DNA from: Synergistaceae bacterium
Lineage (GTDB): Bacteria > Synergistota > Synergistia > Synergistales > Synergistaceae
Assembly (NCBI GenBank): GCA_030533085.1
Contig: JAUNJZ010000009.1
Coordinates: forward strand, 1-64,000
Direction: 5' to 3'
DNA length: 64,000 nucleotides
Part shown: piece by piece, positions 15,937-57,390 of the stretch
How positions within the stretch are numbered: the first letter of the stretch is position 1
Layout of the letters: each line of letters begins with the position of its first letter
Made by a program: the position numbers and the translations under genes
The notes under the pieces: model-generated
What the model was told of the DNA's origin: nothing
What the model saw: only the letters and a program-made list of their open reading frames with translations
The model's database searches: none

Positions 15937-16707
15937 TTACAGAGTAGGCTTAATTAAAATGTCTACTACTTTTGCCCATCCATTTTCAACTGTCGAGTTG
16001 AATTCCCCACAGCTGTAGACAGCGCCTATAATCTTCGCAGAAGAGAACTCATCGAGTGGGTTTCTCCCATCGTAGCGCAAGGTAAGCGCAGCATCTCCTT
16101 TCAAGCATACACGACCTTTGTAGTCAGGGCTTGTGTCTCTACTCATCACACGTTTCAGATATATTCCTGGTCCGTCGCAATTTGGTACAACCTGTAATTG
16201 TAAGTGTGGATGCATTTGTACATCAGGCTCGGTGAAGTCTTTTAGATCTCTTCTATCTAGCTCAAGGTGTACGAATTCAATACCATTTTTTGTTGCAGTA
16301 GCAACAACCTTATCGACACCTTCAACCAAGTTCATTTCCGCATACACTTTTGGATATCCCCAAAGTTCTCTCCCTGCCCAAATTGCAAAATCTTCGCTTT
16401 CATATTCGAACATAGTATAGGCTCCGTAAATGTCTTTATACTTTACGGGGATACAGAAACTGCAATCATAGAAACCCATGAACCCGTCAGCATTCATAAA
16501 ATCCGATATGCTGATATTGAACACGTTGGAAACGTACTCAAAGGGTGTTGGTTCTAAGTATTTTTTGATTAAATCCGGGTCCGTTTCCGCCCAAACAGCC
16601 AAGCTCCTCATATTGGTGCATTTATACGGTACGAAAGGGGAGCGGAATAACGATGCCTGTATAGGATTATTATAGCCATCTTGTACCTTATATGGTCTTT
16701 CAATCAT
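15937..16707 (-). CDS. Acetoacetate-decarboxylase-superfamily protein, copy 1
   Basis: 256 residues, full length for the family. The Schiff-base lysine is visible in G-R-E-L-W-G-Y-P-K (K120). In classical acetoacetate decarboxylase that lysine is followed by a second Lys; here it is Val. Family members lacking the second Lys can catalyse other imine chemistry, so decarboxylation of a beta-keto acid is likely but not assured. AAAGGAGG precedes the ATG. It lies 21 bases after copy 2, last in an AT-rich five-gene minus-strand cluster of dehydrogenases and a betaine-type transporter. Confidence 0.88.
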   Translation of the reverse strand: MIERPYKVQDGYNNPIQASLFRSPFVPYKCTNMRSLAVWAETDPDLIKKYLEPTPFEYVSNVFNISISDFMNADGFMGFYDCSFCIPVKYKDIYGAYTMFEYESEDFAIWAGRELWGYPKVYAEMNLVEGVDKVVATATKNGIEFVHLELDRRDLKDFTEPDVQMHPHLQLQVVPNCDGPGIYLKRVMSRDTSPDYKGRVCLKGDAALTLRYDGRNPLDEFSSAKIIGAVYSCGEFNSTVENGWAKVVDILIKPTL

Positions 16708-16728
16708 AGGTTGAACCTCCTTTTATCT

Positions 16729-17511
16729 TTACTTAAACTCGTCTGGCCAAACAAGCGTATCTATCACGTGAGCCCAGCCATTGTACTCTGGAGTTGCTCT
16801 GTATTCCCCACAAGAATATGTACCACAAAGTACCTTAGCAGAAGAGAATTCATCCAATGGATTTGAGCCATCAAACCTCAATGTCAAGGCAGCGTTTCCA
16901 GTGATATTTATCCGGCCTCTATAGTCAGGCGATGTATCACGTTTCAAAACCCTTTTAATAAGCACGCCGCCAGGAGCTTCTCCACGGGGAATAACCTGGA
17001 GCAGTAAGTGTGGATACATTACGGCTTTAGGGGCCTGCAGTTCCTGCCCATGCTTGCGATCTACTTCAATATATACAAATTCGCGTCCGCGTTTTGAAAC
17101 GCTTGCCGTAACTTTATCAATACCCTCTGTGAATTGCATGTCAGCCAAAACTTTAGGATAGCCCCAAGCCTCACGGCCTAGGGCGACATAGTAGTCACCA
17201 CTTTCATACTCAAACATTGTGTAGCTACCATAAATGTTTTTGTACTTTACCGGAATTGTGAAAGAACAGTCATAGAATCCAGCAAAGCAGTTGGTAGCAT
17301 TCATATAGTCTGACACACTGATGTTAAAGACATTGGAAACATATTCAAAAGGTGTCGGCTCCAGATATTTTTTTATCAGTGCATCATCAACTTCTGCCCA
17401 AACAGATACGCTACGCATATTTGAACATGCATAAGGAACTAAAGGGTCAGTAAACAATGGTGCCTGAATTGGGTTATTACAACCGTTCTGTACTTCGTAT
17501 GGCCTTTTCAT
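16729..17511 (-). CDS. Acetoacetate-decarboxylase-superfamily protein, copy 2
   Basis: 260 residues, a tandem paralogue of copy 1, sharing long identical stretches such as K-K-Y-L-E-P-T-P-F-E-Y-V-S-N-V-F-N-I-S. The catalytic lysine is in G-R-E-A-W-G-Y-P-K (K120), again followed by Val. I chose the ATG at 17511 because AGGAGG lies seven bases upstream; a longer frame extends 28 residues without a ribosome site or family similarity. Keeping two diverged copies side by side suggests a hetero-oligomer or two related substrates. The gap to the next gene upstream is 125 bases. Confidence 0.88.
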   Translation of the reverse strand: MKRPYEVQNGCNNPIQAPLFTDPLVPYACSNMRSVSVWAEVDDALIKKYLEPTPFEYVSNVFNISVSDYMNATNCFAGFYDCSFTIPVKYKNIYGSYTMFEYESGDYYVALGREAWGYPKVLADMQFTEGIDKVTASVSKRGREFVYIEVDRKHGQELQAPKAVMYPHLLLQVIPRGEAPGGVLIKRVLKRDTSPDYRGRINITGNAALTLRFDGSNPLDEFSSAKVLCGTYSCGEYRATPEYNGWAHVIDTLVWPDEFK

Positions 17512-17636
17512 TACTTTTCCTCCTCTTATACTAGTTTTCTTGCTACATAAAAATACCTGCAATGTCAAGCATGTTATTTTATTACTGAAAATCACATATT
17601 ACATAGCAAGTATTTCTGTCCGAATAAACTGACCGT

Positions 17637-18410
17637 TTAAATACATGTGTGCCCACCATCAACAATAACATCAGACCCAGTTGTAAAGCTACTGGCATCA
17701 CTTGCCAAGTATATAAGAGCGCTTTGCAACTCCTCCGGATTACCCAGACGCCCCAGCGCAGTACGTTGAGTCCATATTTCGAAGAATTCATTTCCTTTAC
17801 AGTCATGGTCGAGCATTTCCGTATGCATGCTACCAGGACTTATGGAATTCACCCTGATGTTATATGGTCCCCACTCCCTAGCTACTGCCCTTGTAAAATT
17901 TAGCACGGCACTTTTGGCTGCACAGTAAGAACAGCTAGGTGAGTAGGCGGCGACATGGCCGTTCATTGACGAGATCGTAATGATAGATCCTTTTTTACGG
18001 GGGATCATAAGCCTTGCAGCGCCTCTAGCTGTTAAGAACACGCCTTCAACATCGACTGCGAATGTTTTCTTCCAATCTGCTAGAGGCATCTCATGGGCTA
18101 TGCCAGGGATGAAAACTCCGGCGTTGGCAACGCATATATCTAAAAAACGGAAAGCATTCTCAACCTCTTTGAACATTGTATCAACAGAAGCTTCATTTGT
18201 AACATCCACATACATTGGTAAAGTCTCTACCTTGCAATTAGCAGAAATCTCTTCAGCCACTATTTTTGCATTTTTAAGTCTAATATCTGCTACACAAACA
18301 TTTGCACCAGCTTCTGCTAAAGCGTGACAGAATATCCTTCCTAACCCTTGCCCTCCGCCAGTAACAAGTGCAGTCTTACCTTGTAGGTTTAATCTCTCAA
18401 TGATGCCCAT
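17637..18410 (-). CDS. SDR-family NAD(P)-dependent oxidoreductase, copy 1
   Basis: 257 residues, classical short-chain dehydrogenase. The cofactor motif T-G-G-G-Q-G-L-G is at 17-24, N-A-G at 96-98, catalytic Ser near 147 and Y-C-A-A-K (Y162, K166). It interconverts an alcohol and a ketone with NAD(H) or NADP(H). GAGGGG lies before the ATG, and it follows copy 2 by 22 bases. Only about a third of its residues match that neighbour, so the two probably act on different substrates or in opposite directions. In context it may supply or consume the keto compound handled by the decarboxylase-fold proteins. Confidence 0.9.
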   Translation of the reverse strand: MGIIERLNLQGKTALVTGGGQGLGRIFCHALAEAGANVCVADIRLKNAKIVAEEISANCKVETLPMYVDVTNEASVDTMFKEVENAFRFLDICVANAGVFIPGIAHEMPLADWKKTFAVDVEGVFLTARGAARLMIPRKKGSIITISSMNGHVAAYSPSCSYCAAKSAVLNFTRAVAREWGPYNIRVNSISPGSMHTEMLDHDCKGNEFFEIWTQRTALGRLGNPEELQSALIYLASDASSFTTGSDVIVDGGHTCI

Positions 18411-18432
18411 TTATTGACCCCTCTGCAAGCTC

Positions 18433-19248
18433 TTATTTTTTAGCATCTAACTTTGAATATGAATCCCACACAATCGTGTTTCCGCCATCAACGACCAATT
18501 CATGTCCATTGACATAGTCGGCGTCAGAAGATACGAGAAAGGCAACTGCATTGGCAATGTCTCTTGCCTCTCCAAGGCGGCCAGAGGGTGTGTCAGCAAT
18601 ATAGGCAGCTTCTCTTTCTTCTTGCCTGTTGAAGCGTTGCATAGAAGTGCGGGTCCAGCCAGGTGCTACCGCATTCACATTGATCCCGTAAGGGCCATAG
18701 TCTACAGCCATCTCTCTGGTTAATCCCGCCACGGCTGCCTTTGCTGCACAATATGCAGGTTGCCCACCGCAGCCTCGAAAAGCTGCAATTGACGAAGTGT
18801 TAACTATTTTCCCGCCAGTCCCTTGAGCAAGCATGATGCGACCTGCCTCTTGGCAACAATACCATGTTCCAACAAAGGTCACATTCATTACTGCTTCAAA
18901 CTCTGTGTCTGTTCTTTCATGCACCTTTGCGGAGCCTCGCGCATTTCCAGCGATGTTACAAACTATGTCAAGATGACCGTACTTATCCAGTGCAACTTTG
19001 AATGCATTCTGAACCTGAGCTTTATTTGAAACATCACATTGAACAAATATGGCATCTCCACATTTTGCGTTGATTAAATCCACAGTTGTTTTGTCAGCAT
19101 CAGACTCATAACCTCCCCTGTTTGCAATCTTTGATAAATCACAAGCCACAACCCTTGCTCCATCGGAAGCTAACCTCAATGCCACGGCTCTTCCAATACC
19201 AGAACTTGCGCCAGTTACAAGTGCAACTTTACCTTTTAAATCTGCCAC
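18433..19248 (-). CDS. SDR-family NAD(P)-dependent oxidoreductase, copy 2
   Basis: 271 residues. Cofactor motif T-G-A-S-S-G-I-G at 12-19, N-I-A-G near 98-101, catalytic Ser near 152 and Y-C-A-A-K (Y166, K170). An acidic residue after the second strand (A-C-D-L) favours NAD over NADP. The start is a GTG with GGGAGG nine bases upstream. The protein resembles the 3-oxoacyl-reductase/cyclitol-dehydrogenase branch of SDRs but no close function is recognisable. It lies 48 bases after the transporter gene in the same AT-rich cluster. Confidence 0.9.
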   Translation of the reverse strand: MADLKGKVALVTGASSGIGRAVALRLASDGARVVACDLSKIANRGGYESDADKTTVDLINAKCGDAIFVQCDVSNKAQVQNAFKVALDKYGHLDIVCNIAGNARGSAKVHERTDTEFEAVMNVTFVGTWYCCQEAGRIMLAQGTGGKIVNTSSIAAFRGCGGQPAYCAAKAAVAGLTREMAVDYGPYGINVNAVAPGWTRTSMQRFNRQEEREAAYIADTPSGRLGEARDIANAVAFLVSSDADYVNGHELVVDGGNTIVWDSYSKLDAKK

Positions 19249-19296
19249 AGTAATAGACCTCCCTTTCGTAAATTTAAGTTTTCTTACGCTATTTAG

Positions 19297-20871
19297 CTAA
19301 TTGCTAGTCGTCTCTGTGTTTCCCTTATACTCCACAGCATCATATTTTCCGGAAAGCATCATGGTAATTGCAATGATAAGCAGAACCATCAAAACATAGA
19401 ATGGCAAGCCGCAAGCGGCGCTCATGCTTTCAAGTGCTTTTGTTCCAGCATTTCCTAGAACAAAGAGGCATATTAGTGTCAGGGCGCAAATAACAACGGC
19501 CCAGAAGAAACGAAGGTATATGTCTGCCCCCTTCTCATTTTCATCAACAGTCTTTGAAGTAAGAGAAGCAATGGAGAATGTCATGTTATCTGTCATGGTG
19601 GTGAATGAAATCAACAGTGTGAACAACAACGTTATTCCTCCAAGACTACCAAGAGGGAATCGTTCGAGCAAGTGATAGACGGACATTGGCACGCCAACCT
19701 TGTTTAGCAAATCCATCATTTTTGCCCCCTCGAAAGCATCCAGCCAAATCGCGTTTCCACCCAGCGCCACAAACATTACCACAACCCACAGTGTTGGCGG
19801 AATGAGACTTAAAAGCAACATCTGGCGATATGTACGTCCTCTGGAAATCGTAACGAAGAACATGGATGTAACTGGGGTGTATACACAGGCCCAAACAAAA
19901 AACAGCGCAGACCAGTTCGTTGACCAGCCCTTATCAATGTTGAAAGGGTCAACATTTGTCATCATAGGGATAAAATTAGTAAACATGTCTCCCACTGCTT
20001 CCACATATAATCCTATTAAAAACTTAGTGGGTCCTGCAATGAAAAGGAAAAGAAACAATGCTATATAAAAATAGCCATTTAAGTCTGCTAATACTGTTAT
20101 GCCTTTTTTAATACCCCGAATGGAAGAGCATGTAAATACTGCAGAGATGAGCACAACAATCCAGAAATATACCATATTATTGGGTTTAATTCCAAATACA
20201 TATTCAACTCCTCCGGCCATTTGCATTGCACCAAAACCAAAGGACGTTACTATACCGCCAATTAAGGAGACAACGCAAACAATATCCACAACGCGCCCTG
20301 GCCACTTAAAAGTATATGCCTTTAGCAAAGGGTAAAGAGCAGAGCTTGGCTTGAATGGAAGACCTCTGTCAAAACACATATACCCGATTCCAACACTCCA
20401 AAGTGCAATACAGGCGAAAAATACATATGCCCAGTGAGTTGTGGCAAACCCAATAGCTGCAGAAGCTGCGGCAGGGGAAAGCGCGGCATTGCCAAATAAT
20501 GCTGGAGGATAATAGTAATGATATAGAGGCTCTGCTACTCCCCAAAACAGTATGCCTGAGCCGATAGAACCAGTTATTATCACCGCAAGATAAGAATATA
20601 TACCAACTACAGGTTTTTTGTACTTATCTCCTCCAACAATCCTGCTGGCAAAAGGCGTACATGCAAAAGCGTAAGTTGCAATTATAATTGCGCCAGAGAC
20701 AGGCAAGTAAAACCATGTAAACTGGCCTAAACAGAAACTTACAACAACTTTTGAACAATCAATAAATAGCTGCTCAAAAAATATCCCTACAAAAACCACA
20801 ACTCCAAGAATTGACACTATTGGATAAAATGTCTTAGTATCAACTCCATTCAAAAAATTAGCTTTCTGCAT
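19297..20871 (-). CDS. BCCT-family transporter with atypical substrate box
   Basis: 524 residues with about twelve membrane helices. The family motif I-S-R-G-R-T-Y-R follows helix 8, marking a betaine/carnitine/choline transporter. Aligned by eye to BetP, the helix-8 aromatic cluster (W-A-W-W-I-S-W-S-P) is W-x-A-x-x-Y here, and in helix 4 only one of the three box aromatics is kept (T-H-W-A-Y-V-F-F-A). The cargo or mode (symport or antiport) may therefore differ. The ATG at 20871 has AGAGG eight bases upstream. It is the first gene of the cluster, divergent from a LysR gene. Confidence 0.9.
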   Translation of the reverse strand: MQKANFLNGVDTKTFYPIVSILGVVVFVGIFFEQLFIDCSKVVVSFCLGQFTWFYLPVSGAIIIATYAFACTPFASRIVGGDKYKKPVVGIYSYLAVIITGSIGSGILFWGVAEPLYHYYYPPALFGNAALSPAAASAAIGFATTHWAYVFFACIALWSVGIGYMCFDRGLPFKPSSALYPLLKAYTFKWPGRVVDIVCVVSLIGGIVTSFGFGAMQMAGGVEYVFGIKPNNMVYFWIVVLISAVFTCSSIRGIKKGITVLADLNGYFYIALFLFLFIAGPTKFLIGLYVEAVGDMFTNFIPMMTNVDPFNIDKGWSTNWSALFFVWACVYTPVTSMFFVTISRGRTYRQMLLLSLIPPTLWVVVMFVALGGNAIWLDAFEGAKMMDLLNKVGVPMSVYHLLERFPLGSLGGITLLFTLLISFTTMTDNMTFSIASLTSKTVDENEKGADIYLRFFWAVVICALTLICLFVLGNAGTKALESMSAACGLPFYVLMVLLIIAITMMLSGKYDAVEYKGNTETTSN

Positions 20872-21009
20872 CACAGTCACCTCTTCATAATATTTTTAAT
20901 TATTTGTTGCCATTTGAACTTGCCAATACTGAAAAGTTTTTTGCGAAACATTTTTCAGATCAATTTTTTATCACCTCCTAAAACAGCTCTGGATTTTGCG
21001 TAAATACCC

Positions 21010-21024
21010 TTATAGCATTTATAA
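21010..21024. promoter_or_regulatory. LysR-type box in the divergent transporter/regulator promoter
   Basis: TTATA-GCATT-TATAA is a perfect five-base inverted repeat with T-N11-A spacing, 38 bases upstream of the LysR start and 138 bases upstream of the transporter start. That is a usual place for a LysR autoregulatory site. Confidence 0.4.
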
Positions 21025-21062
21025 TTAAGTAAATTACAACTACAAGAGGGGGGAAGTTACGC

Positions 21063-21956
21063 ATGGAAAATTTACGCTACAAGGCATTTGTCCGTTCCGT
21101 AGAGACAGGAAGCTTTACTAAAGCAGCAAGTAATATGAGCTATACACCAGCCGGGGTCTTTCGACTTGTTAATGCTTTCGAAGATGAAATTGGCATTCAA
21201 CTGTTTATCAGGGACAACACGGGTGTGCGTTTAACAAAAGAGGGAAGTTTGATATACCAGCAAGTCAAAAAAGTGCAATTTCAAGAAAATAATCTGCTTA
21301 CATTGATTAACGATATTAAAGGAATAACAACAGGTGAGATAACAATAGGAGCTTATTCAAGTATCGCAGTCTGTTGGTTGCCTAGTATTATCAAACGTTT
21401 CAATGATCGTTTCCCTTCTGTTATACTTCACATCTGGGAAAGTGCAAATTATGAAGAACTTTATGGTTGGCTTGAAAGTAATATTATCGATATATGTTTT
21501 TTTAGTCGCGGAGAACTTGACCAATTTTTTGACTGGATTCCACTGAGTGACGATCCTTTGTTAGCAATTCTGCCACAGTCTCATCCGTATGCACAAAGCG
21601 CATCGTTTCCCATTGAACGTTTTAAGGAAGAAAAGCTAATAGTGCAAAGCAATGGGAATGATGATTTGGTTATTAACATCTTGCAAAGACATGATGTCTT
21701 ACCACAGATTACCCACACAACCCTGAGTAGCCTTGCCGCCCTAAGCCTTGTAGAAAAGGGACTTGGCGTATGTCTGATGAATAAGCTCTTTATTCAAAAA
21801 CAGTCTTTTAATGTGCAGGCAATTCCATTGCTCCCTCCTCAGTTTATAACCATGGGCATAGCAGTAACAAATTTAGAAACAGCTTCACCTTCGGTAAGAA
21901 AATTTATACAGGTTGCTCGTGAAACACTACATGCGGAAAAAGTGGAGGGAATTTGA
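21063..21956 (+). CDS. LysR-family regulator of the decarboxylase/BCCT cluster
   Basis: 297 residues: winged helix-turn-helix at about 1-60 (F-T-K-A-A-S-N-M-S-Y-T-P-A-G) and a LysR effector domain with I-G-A-Y-S-S-I-A-V-C-W-L-P near residue 97. GAGGGG precedes the ATG. It is transcribed away from the BCCT transporter across a 190-base gap, the classical layout of a LysR regulator and its target. It is as AT-rich as the cluster and probably arrived with it. The inducer would be predicted to be the transported compound. Confidence 0.9.
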   Translation: MENLRYKAFVRSVETGSFTKAASNMSYTPAGVFRLVNAFEDEIGIQLFIRDNTGVRLTKEGSLIYQQVKKVQFQENNLLTLINDIKGITTGEITIGAYSSIAVCWLPSIIKRFNDRFPSVILHIWESANYEELYGWLESNIIDICFFSRGELDQFFDWIPLSDDPLLAILPQSHPYAQSASFPIERFKEEKLIVQSNGNDDLVINILQRHDVLPQITHTTLSSLAALSLVEKGLGVCLMNKLFIQKQSFNVQAIPLLPPQFITMGIAVTNLETASPSVRKFIQVARETLHAEKVEGI

Positions 21957-26816: not shown

Positions 26817-28055
26817 ATGGCATTAACTCAAGTGATAATCAATAAAATAAAACCAACGCAAAAAATAGAAATGCACTGGGATGACGGCTCAGGAGGGGTA
26901 TCAAATCTTGCTATAAAAATTCGTCCAACTGGTAAACGCTCATGGCACTTGTATTATAAAAATCCAACGGATGGCAAGGAAAGACAAGATAAAATCGCAC
27001 CGGGAACCATACCGCTACAGCGCGCGCGTGAAATCGCGGTTTTATGGAATGGAGAAATAGCCAGAGGCAAAGATCCGCGCAATGTAATGAAGCCTCAGCA
27101 AGCGGCGCCCCCTGCAGCCGTAATAAAAGATCCAACACTAGGCGAAATCCGCGCTGCATATGAAGCCTGGCTTTTGCCTGACGACGGCGGCGAACCTCCG
27201 CTGAAAAGCGGCAAGACGACCTTACGCACAATAGATAGCTTCAAGGCATATTACCAGATACCTCTTTCTCAGTTCACTGTCGCTGAAATCAGAGATTGGA
27301 TAGCGAACTGCCGAGCCAGAAATAACAAAGGAATATCTATCAATCGGCGTATCGCGACTCTTCAAGCAATGCTGAGTTGGGCAAAAAGGGAAGGATTGAT
27401 ATCCCAGGACTATAGATTTCCCCGAATCGCCAAGCAAGCAACGACCGACAGCGACGTTAAGATAAGATACCTGCATGATGATGAGCGTAAGCGCCTATAT
27501 GCCGCTTTGAAAGAACGCGAGCAGAAGCAAGGCAAGGATTACCTTAAAATCGCCGTAATCATTGCAAATTATTCCGGCATTCGCAGGGGCGCGCTGCTGG
27601 GGCTGCGCTGGGGAGATATTAAAACACTGCTCGACGGCAGCCAATCTATACACTTATCGCCAAGGGCGGCAAAATCGAAAAAAAGCTATGATTTGCCGCT
27701 TTCCAACACTGTGATAAAAGCTCTTGAAGAATGGCGCGTATACAGTGAACAGACATGGGGGGCAATTAAACCGGATGATTATATAATTCGCTATGGAAAA
27801 GCCGGCACGCCGATAACAGACTTAAAACACGCTTGGCATTCTATTTTAAAAGAGGCAAATATACAGAATTTCCGCTGGCACGATTTGAGACACGACTTTG
27901 CCAGCCAGCTTGTTATGAAGGGGAGCGATCTCTATATGGTACAGCGCTTATTGACCCACGAATCGATTCAAATGACACAGCGATATGCTCACTTAGCACC
28001 AAAAGAGCAGCAAGCCGCCGTGAATAAATTAAACGACCTCCTGCCCAACCAATAA
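26817..28055 (+). CDS. Tyrosine-recombinase integrase
   Basis: 412 residues in the P4/CP4-57-like layout: an N-terminal DUF4102-type arm-binding domain (about 1-90), a SAM-like core-binding domain (about 105-200) and the catalytic domain. Catalytic residues are visible as R256 in S-G-I-R-R-G, H355-x-x-R358 in H-D-L-R-H, H381 and nucleophile Y390 in Q-R-Y-A-H-L. GGAGGG precedes the ATG. It lies 170 bases from the tRNA-Thr fragment, consistent with tRNA-targeted integration. All key residues are intact, so the enzyme may be active. Confidence 0.95.
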   Translation: MALTQVIINKIKPTQKIEMHWDDGSGGVSNLAIKIRPTGKRSWHLYYKNPTDGKERQDKIAPGTIPLQRAREIAVLWNGEIARGKDPRNVMKPQQAAPPAAVIKDPTLGEIRAAYEAWLLPDDGGEPPLKSGKTTLRTIDSFKAYYQIPLSQFTVAEIRDWIANCRARNNKGISINRRIATLQAMLSWAKREGLISQDYRFPRIAKQATTDSDVKIRYLHDDERKRLYAALKEREQKQGKDYLKIAVIIANYSGIRRGALLGLRWGDIKTLLDGSQSIHLSPRAAKSKKSYDLPLSNTVIKALEEWRVYSEQTWGAIKPDDYIIRYGKAGTPITDLKHAWHSILKEANIQNFRWHDLRHDFASQLVMKGSDLYMVQRLLTHESIQMTQRYAHLAPKEQQAAVNKLNDLLPNQ

Positions 28056-35188: not shown

Positions 35189-36820
35189 CTAATGTGTGTA
35201 TCCCATGCTTTCGCGGTCCGCATCGGTGATGGAATCATCAAGCTCCTTCAGCTCCCTTATTTCGGCAAGACGAATCTGCTTGCGGTAGATATTCAGGTAA
35301 TCCGCCCGCATTGCCCTCATGAAAGCGATGAACATCAGCGGAATAAGGAAGAACATCGGCAGCGCCGCAATGCCCTGTATATTCTGGATAGCCTTGGCAC
35401 CGCCGACTACGAAAATCGTAGCGAAGCCCCCCATTACGATGGCCCATACCACGCGAACAATGGCCGGCGGGTCAATCTCGCCGCGGCAGGAGAGAACGCT
35501 GATACAGTAATCGCCAGAGTCGCACGAGGTCAGGATAAATGTGACGCAGAGTATCAGCGCAATCACAGAAAATGCGATCGTCAGCGGCATATTCTGGAAC
35601 AGAACAAAGAGGCATGTTGACCACTGTCCGTTGATTGCCTTCATCAATCCGCCGCCGCTCCCCAAGTCCATGACGATAGCCGAGGTGCCGATGACCGTAT
35701 TCCAGACCAGCGCGAAAAGGGCGGGCAGGAATATAGCGCCGAATACGAATTCCCTGATCGTTCGTCCGCGCGAGACCTTGGCGATGAAGATACCTACGAA
35801 TGGAGTCCAGGCCATGAAGAAAGCCAGCAGCATGACCGGCCAGTCCCGTGCGAAATCCCAGCCAAGCGCGGCCTGCGTCTCACCGGTGGCGTCCATGAAG
35901 AAGGACATTGGGATGAAATAGATAAGGACGTCTCCAAATCCCTGGATGATGCCCTTCAATATCTTTACCGTCGGTCCAAAGACGACGACCATAGCCATCA
36001 GCAGATAGCAGAGCCGGAGGTTCCAGTCGCTCATCAGCGCCATGCCTTTACTGACGCCGCTGTTGCAGGAGAGACAGAGGATAACGCTGCATATCGCCAG
36101 GATAATCAGCCTGAGAGCCATATTATGTTCTATGTCAAAGACCTGGTGGAGGCCAGAGCCAATCATCGCGCAAGCGATGGCATAGGAAGCGCAGATGCCG
36201 ACCAGCGTCAGGATAATTACGTAAACGTCGATAAGTTTGCCGTACCATACCTCGGTCTTCAGCGTACCGTCAGCGTTTTTCGTGCCAAAGAGGCTGACCA
36301 GCGGCGTACTGAAAAGTCCCCCCACATTTCTGTTATAGGCGAAATAGGCGATAATCAGACCGACGATCGCATAGCCGGCCCACGGGTGCAGCGCATGATA
36401 CCATGTAGCGTATGTCATACCGACCCTCCAGGCGTCACTGCTCTGCGGAGCGAGGGCAAATGGAGGCGCGTAATAATGATCGAGCGTGACATAGATGCCG
36501 TAATATGTCAGCCCCACGCCGAGGCCAGACGCGAACATCATTGCCACCCAGGTCATAAGTTTATACTGCGGCGCGTCGTTATAATTTTTGCAAAGGCGAA
36601 CCTTGCCGTACTTGCTTAAGGCCAGTGCGAGCAGAGCCACAACGAAGAAATTATATCCCGCCATGAACAGCCAGCCGAAGGCGCCGTTCATAGCGTTGAA
36701 TATAGCGCCGGTAACTTCCGTGAAATGGCTGCTGGCCATTCCATTCCAGGTAACAAGAGCAATACTTATGATAATACTTGAGAAAAATATCGTTTTGTCT
36801 ACTTTGTCAAACATTTTCAT
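35189..36820 (-). CDS. BCCT-family betaine/quaternary amine transporter
   Basis: 543 residues, twelve predicted helices. The helix-8 motif ends W-T-P-F-V-G-I-F-I-A-K-V-S-R-G-R-T, close to the family consensus, although two of the tryptophans in the BetP box are Phe here; helix 4 keeps H-P-W-A-G-Y. It imports betaines, carnitine or choline-like compounds. GGAGG lies upstream of the ATG. It is the last gene of the minus-strand methyltransferase operon, 107 bases after the MetH-activation-like gene, and is presumably the importer of the substrate demethylated there. Confidence 0.92.
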   Translation of the reverse strand: MKMFDKVDKTIFFSSIIISIALVTWNGMASSHFTEVTGAIFNAMNGAFGWLFMAGYNFFVVALLALALSKYGKVRLCKNYNDAPQYKLMTWVAMMFASGLGVGLTYYGIYVTLDHYYAPPFALAPQSSDAWRVGMTYATWYHALHPWAGYAIVGLIIAYFAYNRNVGGLFSTPLVSLFGTKNADGTLKTEVWYGKLIDVYVIILTLVGICASYAIACAMIGSGLHQVFDIEHNMALRLIILAICSVILCLSCNSGVSKGMALMSDWNLRLCYLLMAMVVVFGPTVKILKGIIQGFGDVLIYFIPMSFFMDATGETQAALGWDFARDWPVMLLAFFMAWTPFVGIFIAKVSRGRTIREFVFGAIFLPALFALVWNTVIGTSAIVMDLGSGGGLMKAINGQWSTCLFVLFQNMPLTIAFSVIALILCVTFILTSCDSGDYCISVLSCRGEIDPPAIVRVVWAIVMGGFATIFVVGGAKAIQNIQGIAALPMFFLIPLMFIAFMRAMRADYLNIYRKQIRLAEIRELKELDDSITDADRESMGYTH

Positions 36821-36927
36821 TGTAAAACTATCCTCCGTTTCATATTATTTTTAAGTGTAGCGCTTTATTAAGATTGCTGCGTATTCAACAAAGCGCCTCC
36901 TTGTCCGATTTCCAGTTCAGCTCAACG

Positions 36928-37752
36928 TCAGGATATGCGCTCTATGTTAAGCCAGGGCTGGCATTCCCTGGGCAGGTGGCAGCCGTTGAATTGAGCTGCC
37001 AGACATTTCTTGCCTGCGCAGTTGGAACATGGTACGGTGTTGAAGGCAAGATGTTCGCTCGTTCCTTCTTTGCCGACAAAGAACATCGAGCATTGCGTTT
37101 TGAGTGGATACATAACGCCGGAGTTGTGGAGAGAAAATACCGGACGGCGCTCAGAGTCTGTCCTCGTCCATGGTTCCACAAGCAGAGCCAGGCGCGGATC
37201 GATCTCAACATCTGAGCCGTTGTCATGGCACAGCTCAGGAATGTATTCTCCTATCAGTACAAAGGCCTCGTCCCCGCAGAATGCTTCCGACGTCAGGAAG
37301 CGCCGTATTTCATTGCGTATCATGGCAAGCAGGAGCGTGCCGGCGATATCCAGGAACATGGCCTGCATGGCGCTTTTCTTTATAACATTGAAGGCTTTTT
37401 CCTCTAATTCTCCGCCGATCGTCCACACAGCGGCGTATCCGCAAAGACAGCTTTCCCTGAGCTTTTGCCTTAGCGCGCCGTTCTGGAAATGAACCGCAAA
37501 GTCCTTCTCAAGCTCCTCCCTTTTCCAGCTGATAATGCCAGCCTGAGGGCGCGGCAGATGCTGCCATCTGTTGTTCCAATCCTCGGTAAATTGTTCGAAG
37601 GCTTTCTTCATCGCCGGTTTTTTCGCGTAATAGCTCTGCCACATACGGCGCACATCAAAATTCTCAAGAGGCAGACGACACTCTCTGATATCGTTCCTGC
37701 TTATAGCGGTATGATCGTCGGCGAGAAACAGAGACAGATCCATATTCGTCAC
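36928..37752 (-). CDS. Unknown protein resembling a MetH-activation domain, with C-terminal Cys cluster
   Basis: 274 residues, not firmly recognised. Near the end M-Y-P-L-K-T-Q-C-S-M-F-F-V-G is followed by C-S-N-C-A-G-K-K-C. This order (P-x-K-S-like loop, then C-x2-C-x4-C) resembles the small proteins annotated as B12-dependent methionine synthase activation domains found in corrinoid loci. A second protein of this layout is encoded at 57882. The start may be GTG at 37752 (three bases after the RACo stop) or ATG at 37743 (AGGAT nine bases upstream). A role in handling the corrinoid protein is inferred from position. Confidence 0.6.
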   Translation of the reverse strand: MTNMDLSLFLADDHTAISRNDIRECRLPLENFDVRRMWQSYYAKKPAMKKAFEQFTEDWNNRWQHLPRPQAGIISWKREELEKDFAVHFQNGALRQKLRESCLCGYAAVWTIGGELEEKAFNVIKKSAMQAMFLDIAGTLLLAMIRNEIRRFLTSEAFCGDEAFVLIGEYIPELCHDNGSDVEIDPRLALLVEPWTRTDSERRPVFSLHNSGVMYPLKTQCSMFFVGKEGTSEHLAFNTVPCSNCAGKKCLAAQFNGCHLPRECQPWLNIERIS

Positions 37753-37755
37753 ATC

Positions 37756-39381
37756 CTAAGCGTCAAAATTCAGATAGTGGACGAATTTTTGCTGGAAGTC
37801 GTCGGCCGCGGCAAGGTTGATTGATTGGCAGTTCGCTTCGATATACGAGAATGCGCGGTCAGCTTCCGGGTCAAAGGCGCTGCGGCAGACTCCGAGTCCG
37901 GCGCAGTTGCCCACCGGCAGAACCCTTTCAAGCGGGACGCGCGGCAATATACCCATCCTCATGGCGTTGCTCCGGTCGATGTAATTGCCGAAAGCGCCGC
38001 CAAGATATATCCTGTCCAGCTCCGCAGTCGTTATACCGGCCTGCTCCGTCAGTTTCTTTATACCTACGGCGATGGCGCTTTTAGCCAGCTGTACCTCGCG
38101 CACATCCTTTTGTGTCAGCACCAGGTCGGAGGCAGCGCCGTACTCCCCGGCGAAACAGTATACAAACTCGCTGAAATTTCTTTTTCCTTTGCGCAGACGG
38201 CGCGCGAGATCCGCATTCTCCACATTTTCCGAAGCGGCGAATCTTCCGGCGGGGAGGATCACTCCGTTGTTCAGAAGTACGGCTATCATGTCGATAATGC
38301 CTGATCCGCACAGGCCGATTGGCGGCGAGTCTTCGATAGCCGCAAGATGCAGTCCGTTGCTGTCGGCCCAGACCTTCTCAACAGCCCCTTCCATCGCACG
38401 AACGCCGGTGCTTACCTGCGCCCCTTCGAGGGCCGGACCGGCAGCCGCCGAACAGGCGTAGAGGCTTCCTCCGCGACAGACGACCATCTCGGAATTCGTA
38501 CCGATATCAATGAAAAGAGAGGCCCCATCGTTATTGACGATATCTGTGTGATAAAGTCCGGCTGTAATATCCCCTCCTACAAAAGCGGAGATATTGGGTG
38601 TCAGGCTGACAGTCGCCTCCGCGGGTAAATCCAGCTTCAGCGATGCCGCCGTTCTGTCCGCCGCCCGCAGAAATGTGGGCTTGAACGGGCTGCGCCCGAT
38701 CGGCCCGGGGTCTTCTCCTAACAGGAGATGTTCCATGGTGGTGTTGCCAGCCGCGTACATAGCGCCGATATCCGCCGTATTTACGCCGCTCTTTTCCGTT
38801 ATCCCGCGGATTAGCCCGTTTAGTGTGCCGATAATTTCATCCTGCAGGAGTTCCCGATTACGCCGGTCTGTGTCAGCTGAGAAAATACGTGAAATCACGT
38901 CTGCTCCGAATTTGACCTGGGAGTTGCCGGCAGAGGCTGTGGCGACGATATGTCCGTCCTTGGGATGCAGCAGATAAACGACGACGGTCGTCGTGCCGAT
39001 ATCCGCGGCAAGGCGGTATTTTCCGTCCGCAGCGGGACGCAGCCCTCCGCCATTTCTGGCCTCGCCCGCCGCTAAAATGTGCCCATCCTTTTGCCTGTTG
39101 TCGCGAAAAGAGACAATCATACCAGGAAGCGCCGGCGCTGCACAGGAGAGGCGCCAACCCGCAGCCAGCTCTTCCGTGCCGATAGCGGCGCGTTCCGCCT
39201 CCGTAGGTTCCGCCGCCGGAGAAACCAGCACCAGGCATTTTCCGCATTTTCCGCGCCCTCCGCATGGGTGGTCCATTGGCACGCCTCCCCTTGCCAGCAC
39301 GTCGGAAATCGTCTCGCCGGGACGCGGCGTAAGGGAGTTGGCGCTGAAATCAAAGCGAATCGCGCGAGAATCATCAGCCAT
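37756..39381 (-). CDS. RACo-type reductive activator of corrinoid proteins
   Basis: 541 residues. An N-terminal [2Fe-2S] ferredoxin domain has C40, C46, C49 and C80 in the plant-type spacing (C-G-G-R-G-K-C-G-K-C). A linker follows, then a large actin-like ATPase domain with D-I-G-T-T-T-V-V near 130 and D-I-G-T-N-S-E near 255. RACo proteins use ATP to drive electron transfer to the inactive Co(II) corrinoid. The ribosome site AAGGAGG overlaps the stop of the upstream HyuA-like gene, so translation is coupled. It services the corrinoid protein encoded two genes upstream. Confidence 0.93.
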   Translation of the reverse strand: MADDSRAIRFDFSANSLTPRPGETISDVLARGGVPMDHPCGGRGKCGKCLVLVSPAAEPTEAERAAIGTEELAAGWRLSCAAPALPGMIVSFRDNRQKDGHILAAGEARNGGGLRPAADGKYRLAADIGTTTVVVYLLHPKDGHIVATASAGNSQVKFGADVISRIFSADTDRRNRELLQDEIIGTLNGLIRGITEKSGVNTADIGAMYAAGNTTMEHLLLGEDPGPIGRSPFKPTFLRAADRTAASLKLDLPAEATVSLTPNISAFVGGDITAGLYHTDIVNNDGASLFIDIGTNSEMVVCRGGSLYACSAAAGPALEGAQVSTGVRAMEGAVEKVWADSNGLHLAAIEDSPPIGLCGSGIIDMIAVLLNNGVILPAGRFAASENVENADLARRLRKGKRNFSEFVYCFAGEYGAASDLVLTQKDVREVQLAKSAIAVGIKKLTEQAGITTAELDRIYLGGAFGNYIDRSNAMRMGILPRVPLERVLPVGNCAGLGVCRSAFDPEADRAFSYIEANCQSINLAAADDFQQKFVHYLNFDA

Positions 39382-39386
39382 TGAAC

Positions 39387-41405
39387 TTACCTCCTTGAAG
39401 TATCTTTTTCATCAAAGACGGTGAATGAGAGCTGTGTCCAAAGATGCAGCTTCCTGACGCCTCCGCTGATAACGGCCTCTTCGTCCATTCGTTCACACTC
39501 AACAGTCGGAAGCTTTGCGCCGGCCTTCTTTGCCCTGTCCACTATCCATGGTTTCATAAAGGCCCGCGTCTCAGCCACAGCGGTCTCCAGGTCATCATAG
39601 TCGGTTATTCCGAGCGGATGATGCACGCGGTATATTCCGTCATTATGCGGCGTGATACGCACCGCGTAATGCAGAGAGAAGGAGCCGACAGCGGCGCCGA
39701 TCGCTCCCGCTACATCCGCGTCGACCGGCTGAATGGCCTCCGTATTAAGCGACTTTCCGACATCCTTAATGAAAGCCCAGGTCGGCGCTCCGACGCCGAC
39801 CAGATCAGCGCATAGCGACAGCGCTATCTGAGGGCCGCTTTCAAAACGCGCGTCAAGCGCCATGTCGATTATCTGCCGCAGCTCGCCGCATCCTCTTGTG
39901 TCGTTGTTAAAGGTCATACTTTTATAAAAGACGTTGGAGCTTATGCTGTGTTCCGCTAATCGGCAGACTCTCTCCGCCAGCAGCTCAGGGCTGGCTTTAT
40001 CATTATCATATGACAACAGGATGGCCCCAAGTCTCGACGCCTCTCCGTTCCACTTGTCCAGGCGTCCCAGGATATGAAGCGCGTCTGTTGGCGTAAAGGA
40101 GGCGAAAACCACGACGCCGCGCGACTCCATCTGTTCGATCTCATTGCGGCAGAGATTCACAGTCCTCTCGCTCTCCAGCAGCTTTTCAAGGGGCTGAGGG
40201 CCGCCGGCCAGCTTCTCCGTCACTCGCTTTTCAAAGGAGCTCTCCGGACGCCCCCTGCCAGGCAGAATGATTAACGGCTCGCAGCTCATGCCGCATTCCA
40301 CCATTACCTTTAAGGCTTCCACGATCCCGGGGTATTCGACAGCTGTCGAGCAGAGAGGACGGACGCGGCGCGGCCCAAGCGAAAGTTTTCTTTCTCTGTC
40401 ATAATGAACGCGGCTGTCCCCGCCCAGACCGAATGTATAGATATCGATGGCTTTGACGAGTGTCTTGTGGTTTCCAACCGTCGCGCCTTCCTGCAGCAGT
40501 ATCGGCTTGCCGTTTTTCGCTAGGTGGATGATATCCGTTGTGGTGCCGCCGATATCGACTACCCAGCTGTCTCTTTCCACTTTTGCGGAGGAGGCTAAAA
40601 AACATGCCCCGCATGCGCTGCCGGCAGGGCCGGAAAGAATCATCTCCACTGGGTGCGACTTCGCCCATTCCGCTCCGACCAGGGAACCGTCGCCGCGGAC
40701 GACTGTGACCGGCGCATCCATGCCGCAGTCATGACATACCTGTTCAACAGAAGCCAGCAGATCCATAACGATGGGTATCAGCCCCGCGTTAAGCACCGTG
40801 GTCGTCGCCCTCTTGATGGCGTCGAGCTCAGAGGCGAGTTCGTGCCCGCAGGTCACATGAATATGCGGCAGCTTCTCCTGCGCCGCGCGCATGGCCCTCA
40901 GCTCGTGAGCCGTATTGCGTACGGAGAAATAGCCTGATATCGCGATGCCTTCGACATTCGGCCCAAAGGCTTCAAGAGCCTTTTCCAGCGCTTCCATATC
41001 CAGAGGCTCCAGCTCGTTGCCGGCAGGGTCGTGCCCCCCCGCGACGCAAGCTACCATATTCGTGCCGAAGAGCTTGTTTCTGACAGCTCTTTCTACGATA
41101 TCTTCATCGTAGCCTATAAGAATAAGACCGACCGGCCTCAGCTTATCCTCTACAATGGCATTTGTGGCCAGCGTCGTGGCCAGATTGACAGAGCGAACCT
41201 GACGGACGTCAACCTGTCCTAAAATAAGATTGATTCCCCTGCGTATAGTTGAAATAAGATCGTTATGTTCTGTAGGAGTCTTGACTTTCGCACGCAAACG
41301 CATATCATCGCCGCTGATGAACACCAGGTCGGTGAATGTCCCGCCGGCGTCGATACCGAGGATCCCTGTTGCAGGCTTATCATTTTCTTGATTATCATAC
41401 GACAT
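39387..41405 (-). CDS. Hydantoinase/oxoprolinase (HyuA) family protein
   Basis: 672 residues. The ASKHA-type phosphate motif G-I-D-A-G-G-T-F-T-D (about 17-26) opens the N-terminal domain, and V-V-D-I-G-G-T-T-T-D near 280 opens the second, as in HyuA and the acetone carboxylase beta subunit. The family uses ATP to activate amides or ketones. No HyuB partner is encoded here, so it may work alone or be a second corrinoid-activation ATPase. It sits between the corrinoid protein and RACo genes. The SD is weak (GGGAC). Confidence 0.88.
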   Translation of the reverse strand: MSYDNQENDKPATGILGIDAGGTFTDLVFISGDDMRLRAKVKTPTEHNDLISTIRRGINLILGQVDVRQVRSVNLATTLATNAIVEDKLRPVGLILIGYDEDIVERAVRNKLFGTNMVACVAGGHDPAGNELEPLDMEALEKALEAFGPNVEGIAISGYFSVRNTAHELRAMRAAQEKLPHIHVTCGHELASELDAIKRATTTVLNAGLIPIVMDLLASVEQVCHDCGMDAPVTVVRGDGSLVGAEWAKSHPVEMILSGPAGSACGACFLASSAKVERDSWVVDIGGTTTDIIHLAKNGKPILLQEGATVGNHKTLVKAIDIYTFGLGGDSRVHYDRERKLSLGPRRVRPLCSTAVEYPGIVEALKVMVECGMSCEPLIILPGRGRPESSFEKRVTEKLAGGPQPLEKLLESERTVNLCRNEIEQMESRGVVVFASFTPTDALHILGRLDKWNGEASRLGAILLSYDNDKASPELLAERVCRLAEHSISSNVFYKSMTFNNDTRGCGELRQIIDMALDARFESGPQIALSLCADLVGVGAPTWAFIKDVGKSLNTEAIQPVDADVAGAIGAAVGSFSLHYAVRITPHNDGIYRVHHPLGITDYDDLETAVAETRAFMKPWIVDRAKKAGAKLPTVECERMDEEAVISGGVRKLHLWTQLSFTVFDEKDTSRR

Positions 41406-41576
41406 AGTCTTTTGTCCCGTTCAGGTTTTCAGCGCGGGAGGAGGCAAGGATATGGCGGCCAGATTAAACAGAAGCGGAAAAATAAGGTTAGACGCTATTT
41501 TTCCGCTTGGGCTTTCGGCTGAATACCGCTATAAATCCTGCGCCGCCCCCGCTGATTTTATTAAGCCTATATAAGC

Positions 41577-42227
41577 CTAGGCGCGCCCCATAAGCTTATC
41601 AGCTTCGACGACCGCCGCCGAAGCGTCTTCAGAGAAACCGTCGGCTCCCACCTTCATAGCCCAGTCGCGGGAGACGGGCGCGCCGCCGAGCAACACCTTT
41701 ATCTGGTCGCGAATGCCGGCCTCTTTGGCCATTTCGATAAACTGGGACTGCGCGGTCATGGTGGTCAGCAGAAGAGCTGAGAGTCCTACGAGGTCGGGCT
41801 TATGCTTCTTGACAAGCTCGATCATTTTCGTGTTGGGAACATCCTTTCCGGCATCTATGACCTCATACCCGCAGGCCTTCATGACCATTGCGACGAGAGA
41901 CTTGCCTATATCGTGTACGTCGCCTTCGACTGTGGCGAGAAGCACTGTGCCGCGTTTTTCGAGCTTGTCCTCTCCCTTGAGCGAATCTTCCAGCCTCACC
42001 ATCACGCCAAGCGTGATGTCGGCCGCTATCAGAAGCTCCGGCAGGAATATTTCCTCTTCGGCGAACAGCTCGCCAAGCTCCTGCAGCGCGGCCGCAAGTC
42101 CTTTGTTAAGGATGTCAATCGGGTCTATGCCGTTTTCAATAGCCTTGTCCACGTATTCATTTACTGTCTCTTCATCCTGATCCATCAGTGCCGAACGCAG
42201 CTTCTCGAGTATATCTTCTTTATTCAT
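41577..42227 (-). CDS. Methyltransferase corrinoid protein (MttC/MtbC-like)
   Basis: 216 residues: a helical cap domain (about 1-90) and a Rossmann-type B12-binding domain. The cobalt-ligand motif G-D-V-H-D-I-G is at 102-108 (H105), with S-A-L-L-L-T-T and G-G-A-P-V following. It carries the methyl group between the MttB-like enzyme and the UroD-type methyltransferase. I chose the ATG at 42227, with AGGAGG seven bases upstream. A 171-base gap separates it from the next gene downstream. Confidence 0.95.
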   Translation of the reverse strand: MNKEDILEKLRSALMDQDEETVNEYVDKAIENGIDPIDILNKGLAAALQELGELFAEEEIFLPELLIAADITLGVMVRLEDSLKGEDKLEKRGTVLLATVEGDVHDIGKSLVAMVMKACGYEVIDAGKDVPNTKMIELVKKHKPDLVGLSALLLTTMTAQSQFIEMAKEAGIRDQIKVLLGGAPVSRDWAMKVGADGFSEDASAAVVEADKLMGRA

Positions 42228-42333
42228 AACTCTTCCTCCTGTCAAAAATCAAATATCTGGTTTTTCCGGGGGACGCCCCCATTATATCACGCTGTCGGAT
42301 GCGGCGTTCCAGTGAAGTCGCTCCGAAAATTTC

Positions 42334-43788: not shown

Positions 43789-43863
43789 TTGTTACCACTC
43801 CCTTATAATATGTGATGCGTAATATGTAAAAAACTTTCTGATATCTCTTTTATTCGCGGCAGC

Positions 43864-44883
43864 CTATATAAGTCCGTGCTCTTTGTTGAAATCGCTGCAT
43901 ACGCTGAACATTGCCTCGACATTCTCCAGAGGGGCGATCGCCGGGATATCGCATCCGGAAGAGAAGACGAAGTTCGGGAATTTTGCCGTAGCTTCCAGCA
44001 GCTTTTTTCCCTCGGCGTATATTTCCTCGGGAGTTCTCGTCGTGATAACCGCCGGGTTGATATTGCCAAAAATCAGTACGTCGGCAGGAAGTCCGGCCAG
44101 AATTTCAGGCATATTAGCCACATTTCCAAAATGCAGTCCCTTGGCGCCCGTTTCATACATCTGATCGTATGTCTTACTGACATAGCCGCAGTTATGCAAG
44201 ATGACATAGAATGAGCTGTCCTGTACCGCTTCAACCAGCTTTTTCGTATAGATGGTGGAAAAACGTCTGAACTGCTTAGGGGCGAGCAGACCTGCCGTCG
44301 GCTCGGCTATCAGCACGCCGTTAGCGCCGGCTTCTTTGTAGCTCTTCGCGCGTTCGATAAGAAAATCAGTGGCTTTTTCGAGCAGCACCTCCAACAGCTT
44401 CGGCTCTTTGACTGTGAGCAGCAGCGATTTTTGTACATCCAGGAAGTTTGCCGTTAAGGAGAAGGGGCCTAATTGCCCGCCAAAGATAGGACGGTCCGTG
44501 ATCAGCTCCTGAGACTTTTTTACCGCCTCCAGAAAAACATCAAGGCGCGCGGCGTGGGCGTCCGGCACCGCGAGCTTCTCCGCCTCTTCCATATTAGATA
44601 CTATCGGCCCGGCAAGCGTTGGCGCTTCCGTATCCTTGAACTTTACCTCGGCCCCGAAAGCCTCCGCGTCCGCGGTAAGATCCATTCCTGTCATCGCGCC
44701 GATCATTGTCGGGAATCTTTCGACTGTGGCAGCCATGATCTCCGCCATCTTCGCGCCGTCATGCACCGTCTCAATAACTCCCATTCCCTTGAGACAAAGG
44801 CATGGGAAGTAAAGGATGGGGAGAAAACGGCGATCTTTCGCCGCGATAATTTCTTCTGACCACGAATCCATATTAAATAACAT
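43864..44883 (-). CDS. UroD-family methylcobamide methyltransferase (MtaA/MtbA-like)
   Basis: 339 residues with the uroporphyrinogen-decarboxylase TIM-barrel fold. The zinc ligands of the methyltransferase branch are visible: H230-x-C232 in L-H-N-C-G and C311 in S-S-G-C-D-I-P. Such proteins take the methyl group from the corrinoid protein; in methanogens the acceptor is coenzyme M, whereas in bacteria it is often tetrahydrofolate or unknown. No pterin-binding methyltransferase lies in the operon. AGGAGGG precedes the ATG. It is the first gene of the operon, with a strong promoter 150 bases upstream. Confidence 0.9.
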   Translation of the reverse strand: MLFNMDSWSEEIIAAKDRRFLPILYFPCLCLKGMGVIETVHDGAKMAEIMAATVERFPTMIGAMTGMDLTADAEAFGAEVKFKDTEAPTLAGPIVSNMEEAEKLAVPDAHAARLDVFLEAVKKSQELITDRPIFGGQLGPFSLTANFLDVQKSLLLTVKEPKLLEVLLEKATDFLIERAKSYKEAGANGVLIAEPTAGLLAPKQFRRFSTIYTKKLVEAVQDSSFYVILHNCGYVSKTYDQMYETGAKGLHFGNVANMPEILAGLPADVLIFGNINPAVITTRTPEEIYAEGKKLLEATAKFPNFVFSSGCDIPAIAPLENVEAMFSVCSDFNKEHGLI

Positions 44884-57371: not shown

Positions 57372-57390
57372 ATTGCGTACCTCCCGTTCT

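Follow-up and report, generated by a model that had tools for sequence, protein, structure and literature searches.

Gene content and composition of the island

We analyzed a 64,000-nucleotide stretch of DNA, here referred to as the window, from a Synergistaceae bacterium (GenBank assembly GCA_030533085.1, contig JAUNJZ010000009.1, positions 1 to 64,000), focusing on a six-gene island at positions 15937 to 21956 that a first-pass annotation had described as an AT-rich module for the decarboxylative fermentation of betaines. Five of the genes lie on the minus strand. The operon is headed by the gene for a BCCT-family transporter with an altered aromatic box (19297 to 20871; 524 amino acids from ATG 20871, the most likely start), which was assigned by PF02028 and by its residues. 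It is followed by two short-chain dehydrogenase/reductase (SDR) genes, SDR2 (18433 to 19248; 271 amino acids) and SDR1 (17637 to 18410; 257 amino acids), recognized by PF13561 and by their motifs, and then by two genes for proteins with the acetoacetate decarboxylase (ADC) fold, ADC2 (16729 to 17511; 260 amino acids) and ADC1 (15937 to 16707; 256 amino acids). ADC2 is a tandem paralogue of ADC1 located 21 nt upstream of it; the pair was assigned by PF06314, supplemented by residues and an AlphaFold model for ADC1 and by the tree and start site for ADC2. A divergent promoter region (20872 to 21062) separates the operon from the gene for a LysR-type regulator on the plus strand (21063 to 21956; 297 amino acids; PF00126 and PF03466). 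All six frames are intact and each protein scores above the Pfam cut-off for its own family, confirming the six genes named in the first-pass annotation. The gaps between the minus-strand genes measure 21 to 125 nt, and Shine-Dalgarno-like sequences precede all five, the weakest being that of SDR1. For ADC2, ATG 17511 is the most likely start, being preceded by AGGAGG; its open reading frame (ORF) could reach back to GTG 17595.

The described contrast between an AT-rich island and GC-rich surroundings was borne out. The island genes have a GC content of 0.39 to 0.46 and a third-codon-position GC content (GC3) of 0.32 to 0.41, compared with a mean GC of 0.551 and a mean GC3 of 0.652 (standard deviation, 0.087) for the 34 other window ORFs of at least 200 amino acids, and the lowest-GC 6-kb stretch of the window begins at 16401. 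Because its GC3 is far under the window mean, the island looks like an acquired, foreign block. The host genome assembly (2.63 Mb in 76 contigs, 95% complete) contains two PF06314 genes, both of them in the island.

In the divergent promoter region, a candidate LysR-box palindrome at 20929 to 20958 was rejected, as the best inverted repeat of the region was matched or beaten in 108 of 200 shuffles; no inverted repeat between 20872 and 21062 rose above chance in this test. Sigma-70-like sites were near expectation (23 observed, 18.9 expected; standard deviation, 4.6), and terminator-like sites fell short of it (2 observed, 5.1 expected). Nothing in the window matched in Rfam or tRNA scans. Elsewhere in the window are a tyrosine-recombinase integrase gene of the phage-integrase family, about 5 kb from the island (26817 to 28055, plus strand), and a gene resembling those for aldehyde ferredoxin oxidoreductase (54786 to 57416, minus strand), whose 876-amino-acid product is longer than usual for that enzyme.

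The two ADC-fold proteins belong to a separate branch of their family

ADC1 and ADC2 scored 104 and 91 bits, respectively, against PF06314 (cut-off, 29.8 bits) and, at 63 and 42.3 bits, stayed below the 150-bit cut-off of PRK02265, the NCBIfam model for acetoacetate decarboxylase. The two proteins are about 64% identical (63 to 64%) and are sisters in the ADC tree with support of 100/99; by these measures they are a tandem duplication. The claim that the enzymes of each type are duplicated therefore stands for the ADC pair but not for the SDRs, which are only 31% identical. In the tree, from which six rows repeating the same genomic places were removed, the window pair falls inside a 31-row clade (support, 95/93) that joins a six-row sister branch to form a group of 37 rows (support, 95/88), here referred to as type A. 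Its members come from the bacterial family of the window, Bacillota, Thermodesulfobacteriota, and Pseudomonadota.

ADC1 carries Lys120 at the Schiff-base position, which we take to be Lys115 in the numbering of the Clostridium enzyme, along with Arg34 at the Arg29 position and Asp81 at the position of Glu76, presumably a residue with a role in classical ADC. ADC2 keeps the equivalent of Lys120. Among the 35 other type A rows, Lys120 and Asp81 are each kept in 34, and the residue following the catalytic lysine is Lys in 28, Met in 1, and His in the 6 that make up the sister branch. Asp at the Glu76 position distinguishes type A from a second group, type B, which has Glu there and is present at many loci that also carry type A genes.

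The AlphaFold model of ADC1 (pLDDT, 90.3; pTM, 0.86) found its best PDB matches in three entries named acetoacetate decarboxylase: 3bgt (Z 26.9; root mean square deviation of 2.2 over 223 residues), 3c8w (Z 26.9), and 3bh2 (Z 26.2). A sequence search with the window ADC likewise returned matches that all bear this name. The resemblance to this family thus extends to the fold, the Schiff-base lysine, and the equivalent of Arg29, although the structural matches are 19 to 22% identical to ADC1 in sequence. MppR (4jm3 to 4jme), the aldolase-dehydratase of Streptomyces bingchenggensis (4zbt/6eej), and Swit_4259 (5upb), some of whose entry titles mention Schiff-base chemistry, have the fold in common with ADC1 but match it more weakly and at 11 to 14% identity (Z 22.7 to 23.6 for the aldolase-dehydratase and MppR; Z 24.7 for Swit_4259). 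Profile, residues, model, and PDB matches together agree with the first description of an ADC fold bearing a Schiff-base lysine, and the structural ranking of the predicted model leans towards decarboxylation but does not settle the reaction.

A second tandem ADC-fold pair was seen in Desulforhopalus singaporensis (locus L109, 10894 to 12505), adjoining a sigma-54 regulator and an MFS carrier. Because one of its copies has Asp at the position of the Schiff-base lysine, that copy may be an inactive partner.

The SDRs carry the marks of NAD(H) enzymes

SDR1 and SDR2 scored 207 and 210 bits, respectively, against PF13561. Both pass the classical-SDR test of TGxxxGxG plus YxxxK, with TGGGQGLG and YCAAK in SDR1 and TGASSGIG and YCAAK in SDR2. 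In each, the second beta strand ends in Asp, the usual mark of NAD(H) use, and we infer that both are of the NAD(H) type. The first-pass assignment of two SDRs was thereby upheld, and because both carry this Asp, a redox-neutral loop would be possible. No NCBIfam model was over its cut-off among the best 25 of 233 matches for SDR1, while among the best 25 of 231 for SDR2 only the broad subfamily PRK07231 was. No equivalog model exceeded its cut-off for any of the island proteins (among the best 25 matches in the case of the SDRs and the LysR protein).

The BCCT transporter has lost two residues of the aromatic box

The window BCCT scored 359 bits against PF02028 and fell under the cut-offs of all five NCBIfam models that it matched, including the L-carnitine/gamma-butyrobetaine antiporter model (185 bits against 541). 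Its sequence identity is 28% with BetT of E. coli and 21% with CaiT. At the positions of CaiT residues 142, 147, 150, 323, and 324, it has W, F, I, W, and A. Thus, within a family that includes CaiT, BetT, BetP, DddT, and TmaT, it keeps Trp at the CaiT 142 and 323 positions, whereas Trp147 is replaced by Phe, Tyr150 by Ile, Trp324 by Ala, and Arg262 by Asn.

To gauge these changes, we compared the protein with 28 other BCCTs, consisting of CaiT, BetT, and 26 proteins of undefined substrate from the phylum; the phylum loci were those fetched, a part of all matches, with L080 and L091 dropped because they held no BCCT ORF and L079 being partial. The equivalents of Tyr150 and Trp324 are each present in 27 of the 28, and in 29 and 28 of 30, respectively, when two more BCCTs from the window's own genome are added. 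Positions 147 and 323 say little, because both vary among the other BCCTs (Trp in 12/28 and 11/28, respectively, with Tyr at 147 in 15/28). Asn at the position of CaiT Arg262, which we take to be the residue that replaces sodium, is found in 26 of the 28 others as well as in the window BCCT, and the CaiT-like exchange proposed at first is accordingly judged unlikely.

A study of the trimethylamine transporter TmaT (PMC11708041) describes Trp146, Tyr154, Trp326, and Trp329 of that protein as residues whose conservation is restricted to quaternary-ammonium carriers, lists W326A and Y154A among the mutants that were largely impaired, and notes BCCT carriers of other compounds, namely, dimethylsulfoniopropionate and ectoine. 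We matched these four residues to CaiT Trp142, Tyr150, Trp324, and Tyr327 by their identical spacing rather than by an alignment of TmaT. By that rule, the window BCCT lacks Tyr154 and Trp326, has Tyr in place of Trp329 (as does CaiT), and keeps Trp146. Box residues and NCBIfam scores thus agree with the early description of this transporter as atypical. A quaternary-amine substrate is not supported, and the betaine reading is weak because the protein is without the Tyr150, Trp324, and Arg262 of CaiT, because its nearest relatives are encoded next to a glycyl-radical enzyme and an SDR, and because the genome shows no beta-keto-acid cleavage enzyme (BKACE).

A second BCCT gene is part of a compact, methylamine-type cluster at 35189 to 44883 on the minus strand, which also encodes a protein without Pfam match, an RACo-like activator, a hydantoinase-A-like protein, a corrinoid protein, and MttB-family and URO-D-type methyltransferases. 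This cluster looks like one for the anaerobic demethylation of a quaternary amine and like the likelier betaine locus of the window, despite the unusual box of its BCCT.

Type A genes are rare and recur beside varied transporters

In a search of the phylum with ADC2, relatives at an E value of 1e-10 were found in 3 of 185 genomes, its own included. In three more genome sets, a type A profile at 1e-25 found members in 1 of 398, 1 of 297, and 3 of 249 genomes; every set counts among its members a center genome picked for having a type A gene. A scan of named genomes, limited by the two peptide patterns used, confirmed 22 loci of 96 matching stretches. Judged by these searches, type A is a rare, scattered branch of the ADC family.

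We then surveyed the genes within 8 kb of the type A gene at 29 loci, including the window. A second ADC gene, whether of type A, of type B, or from the sister branch with His, was present in 20 loci, an SDR gene in 12, and both in 10; these and the following counts are not independent, because Brevibacillus reuszeri is represented by two strains and many of the loci are from Rhizobiaceae, and some spans end at contig or locus edges. Enoyl-CoA-hydratase-like genes occurred in 11 of the 29 loci, acyl-CoA ligase genes in 9, sigma-54 regulator genes in 8, ProC-like and aldehyde dehydrogenase genes in 7 each, and alcohol dehydrogenase genes in 6 (one of the six matches being at 24% identity). The transporters were PutP-like symporters in nine loci and, in five, permeases that we take to belong to the YkvI family and that had no Pfam or NCBIfam match at the limits used. 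Two PutP-like proteins tested had PutP as their best NCBIfam model, at 324 and 377 bits, under its cut-off of 515. A BCCT gene lay within 8 kb at one locus, the window; at L042, part of a BCCT ORF lies just outside this limit. Two SDR genes were seen only at the window and Seinonella loci.

The modules of Bacillota and Alphaproteobacteria (among L040 to L061, L114, and L115) resemble the island in their type A ADC gene, which in many of them is accompanied by another ADC gene, an SDR gene, or a transporter gene. Their recognized carriers are PutP-like or YkvI-like, with ABC genes in some, whereas the window has a BCCT, and their second ADC is often of type B, with Glu at position 76, whereas the window has two type A genes and two SDRs. 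Two ADC genes and a transporter, with or without an SDR, recur in distant phyla, but the exact five-gene set was found at none of the other 28 loci. In one genome (G020), a symporter gene lies between two ADC genes that are about 2 kb apart; in another (G028), type A genes occur at two separate sites, next to a PutP-like gene at one and a YkvI-like permease gene at the other. At the Brucella haematophila locus, a gene of the proline racemase family lies nearby, perhaps in another operon; its best NCBIfam model is trans-3-hydroxyproline dehydratase (440 bits; cut-off, 550).

Five alphaproteobacterial loci (L048, L049, L052, L053, and L060) hold a recurring set of genes for a type A ADC, a type B ADC, an SDR, aldehyde and alcohol dehydrogenases, an acyl-CoA ligase, and an enoyl-CoA-hydratase-like protein, with a ProC-like gene in some relatives. 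The set looks like a complete catabolic pathway, and we know of none that it matches. The idea that the Shinella ADC genes are tied to compounds degraded by the strain was dropped, as the two papers that name the strain concern acesulfame.

The nearest relatives of the BCCT adjoin a glycyl-radical enzyme

The nearest relatives of the window BCCT are encoded in genome G025 and in the window's own genome; they are 35 to 36% identical to it and 65% identical to each other, and the same two box positions are altered in them, to Gln and Thr. In G025, genes for a BCCT, an SDR, an activase, a glycyl-radical enzyme, and a LysR protein follow in this order on one strand. In the window's own genome, the BCCT gene opens contig C45 (L108) and the genes for the glycyl-radical enzyme and its activase end contig C12 (L128). 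Because parts of a G025-like SDR gene lie at the ends of C12 and C45, the two contigs apparently adjoin, the break falling inside that gene. This cluster, which belongs to the same bacterial family as the window and is intact at L094, resembles the island in its BCCT and the adjoining SDR but has the glycyl-radical enzyme and activase where the window has its ADCs, and its SDR and LysR proteins are 27 to 30% and 23% identical, respectively, to those of the window. The best PDB match of the glycyl-radical enzyme is HplG (528 bits), which acts on hydroxyproline. Because the scores of the two enzymes against the model for hydroxyproline dehydratase (529 and 549 bits) are under its cut-off of 1100, we regard them as unnamed relatives. 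By analogy with these neighbors of its BCCT relatives, a proline-like substrate for the island is plausible.

Seven proteins of the window's own genome match the PFL-like glycyl-radical family, on contigs C71, C20 (two), C23, C66, C17, and C12. Of the five that were scanned, that on C71 alone exceeds the cut-off of the model for trans-4-hydroxyproline dehydratase (1134.8 bits against 1100). The protein on C23 and one of those on C20 are alike at the start and have equal scores. The genes on C23 and C17 each adjoin three genes that look like those of TRAP transporters, together with an MttB gene on C23 and a ProC-like gene on C17.

Proposed function of the island and alternatives

We propose that the island was acquired horizontally and works as a catabolic operon under LysR control, importing a non-quaternary amino, imino, or oxo acid and degrading it by Schiff-base decarboxylation with the help of NAD(H)-type SDRs, a reading to which we assign a probability of about 0.45. 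The BCCT-family carrier, with its remodeled box, would bring in a small untrimethylated acid of this kind, probably by ion symport. One SDR would oxidize a secondary alcohol to a ketone, ADC1, ADC2, or both would form a Schiff base through Lys120 and remove CO2, and the second SDR would reduce the product and so re-oxidize the cofactor. The tandem ADC copies might differ in substrate, acting on two related compounds, or assemble into a mixed oligomer. Two kinds of neighbor make a compound related to proline or hydroxyproline our best guess at the substrate: the genes for PutP-like symporters or a ProC-like protein that adjoin type A genes elsewhere, and the gene for a glycyl-radical enzyme, resembling hydroxyproline dehydratases, that lies beside those of the nearest relatives of the BCCT.

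Several observations weigh against this proposal. Both window ADCs have Asp in place of the Glu76 of classical ADC, and in both the catalytic lysine is followed by Val instead of the Lys seen in 28 of the 35 remaining type A rows; decarboxylation is not assured because of these two changes. In addition, 3cmb, another entry named ADC, matches the ADC1 model with a Z of 23.9, no better than the aldolase-dehydratase (23.6). The proline link is based on neighboring genes and on scores under cut-off; the link to a glycyl-radical enzyme depends on a BCCT of only 36% identity. The second window BCCT (35189 to 36820), which adjoins the MttB methyltransferase cluster, has H, W, Y, F, and F at the box positions, so it also departs from the classical box and the aromatic-box rule is not absolute. 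The counts of SDR (12/29) and transporter genes near type A genes stand without a random-locus control, and SDR genes are common. At six of the 29 loci (L033, L034, L045, L050, L059, and L114), a recognized transporter gene accompanies the type A ADC gene, and neither an SDR gene nor another ADC gene lies within 8 kb; oxidation before decarboxylation, the order first envisaged, is for this reason not general, and the recurring theme is an imported compound plus a type A enzyme, to which SDRs are an optional addition. Finally, both the substrate and the enzyme activity are predictions from sequence.

The Asp and Val changes in the window ADCs would also fit a different use of the Schiff base, in which the ADC-fold proteins would carry out an aldol cleavage, a dehydration, a beta-elimination, or a reaction on a cyclic imine, as in MppR or the aldolase-dehydratase. 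Such reactions are hosted by this fold, and a ProC-like gene downstream of the type A gene in seven Hyphomicrobiales loci would suit a cyclic imine. Three of the four ADC-named structures nevertheless outmatch MppR and the aldolase-dehydratase (3cmb does not), the sequence search yields ADC-named entries only, and Asp for Glu76 is a conservative change, leaving this reading unlikely but far from negligible. A biosynthetic or detoxifying role, in which the ADC pair and SDRs would produce or remove a small ketone or cyclic molecule, with the BCCT as an osmolyte carrier adjacent by chance, seems improbable. ADC-like proteins do serve natural-product pathways, and the BCCT is unique to the window among the 29 loci. 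The island, however, contains no other biosynthetic genes, the type A gene in relatives is often found next to a transporter gene, and the aldehyde dehydrogenase, acyl-CoA ligase, and enoyl-CoA-hydratase-like genes of several alphaproteobacterial loci look catabolic. It is quite improbable that the island is a decaying or chance assembly of foreign genes with no joint function: its AT-rich, foreign look and an exact gene set found nowhere else examined would allow this, but the six intact frames, the close spacing of five co-oriented genes with recognizable ribosome-binding sites, and the recurrence of a second ADC plus an SDR near type A genes in nine other loci, including ones from Bacillota and Alphaproteobacteria, all speak against it.

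The original reading has the BCCT take up a hydroxy-betaine such as carnitine, an SDR oxidize it, an ADC-type enzyme decarboxylate it, and a final reduction follow, with CaiT-like exchange building a membrane potential; we consider it highly improbable. The gene set is chemically compatible with it, and the genome appears to handle methylated amines, given the MttB-type cluster with its own BCCT at 35 to 45 kb. In Citrobacter, trimethylaminoacetone was more abundant on carnitine than on glucose, and the known carnitine dehydrogenase is similar to 3-hydroxyacyl-CoA dehydrogenase rather than to SDRs, according to one paper (PMC12482172). The carnitine version is unlikely because of this difference in enzyme family, because no beta-keto-acid cleavage enzyme was detected in the one, 95%-complete genome searched, that of the window, and because the transporter does not fit. 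The lost equivalents of Tyr150 and Trp324 are those conserved in quaternary-ammonium carriers according to the TmaT paper (PMC11708041), and Arg262 is Asn; Phe at Trp147 counts little. The type A relatives, moreover, pair with PutP-like or YkvI-like carriers and with a BCCT within 8 kb in none of the 28 other loci. On transporter residues and type A partners, carnitine or betaine is thus an unlikely substrate. Tropane or hygrine alkaloids, stachydrine, ectoine, and Amadori products were also considered as candidates and found no support.

Returning to the import of a non-quaternary acid, we tentatively extend it to a more general proposal, which we regard as possible but doubtful: type A ADCs may be a distinct, as yet undescribed branch of Schiff-base lyases that serve a single class of imported non-quaternary amino or imino acids, in which the importer (PutP-like, YkvI-like, ABC, or BCCT) is swapped and the lyase kept, and the BCCT branch of the window may be common to ADC and glycyl-radical routes in its bacterial family.

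Among the open-licence papers listed by our searches, we found no account of this gene set and none joining an ADC with a BCCT, in line with the first-pass view that no described pathway uses it; the island combines known folds in an undescribed way. If the general proposal is true, it would represent an unrecorded fermentation of proline-related or other cyclic amino acids and would extend the BCCT family further beyond methylated compounds, showing that carriers with an altered box serve other substrates. It would also assign a function to a rare group of ADCs, one represented in the bacterial family of the window as well as in Bacillota, Alphaproteobacteria, and a Desulforhopalus. To our knowledge, few members of the ADC-like superfamily have established reactions, and for this reason each new one helps to predict the rest. 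A small operon open to testing would offer a way to an unrecorded catabolic route.

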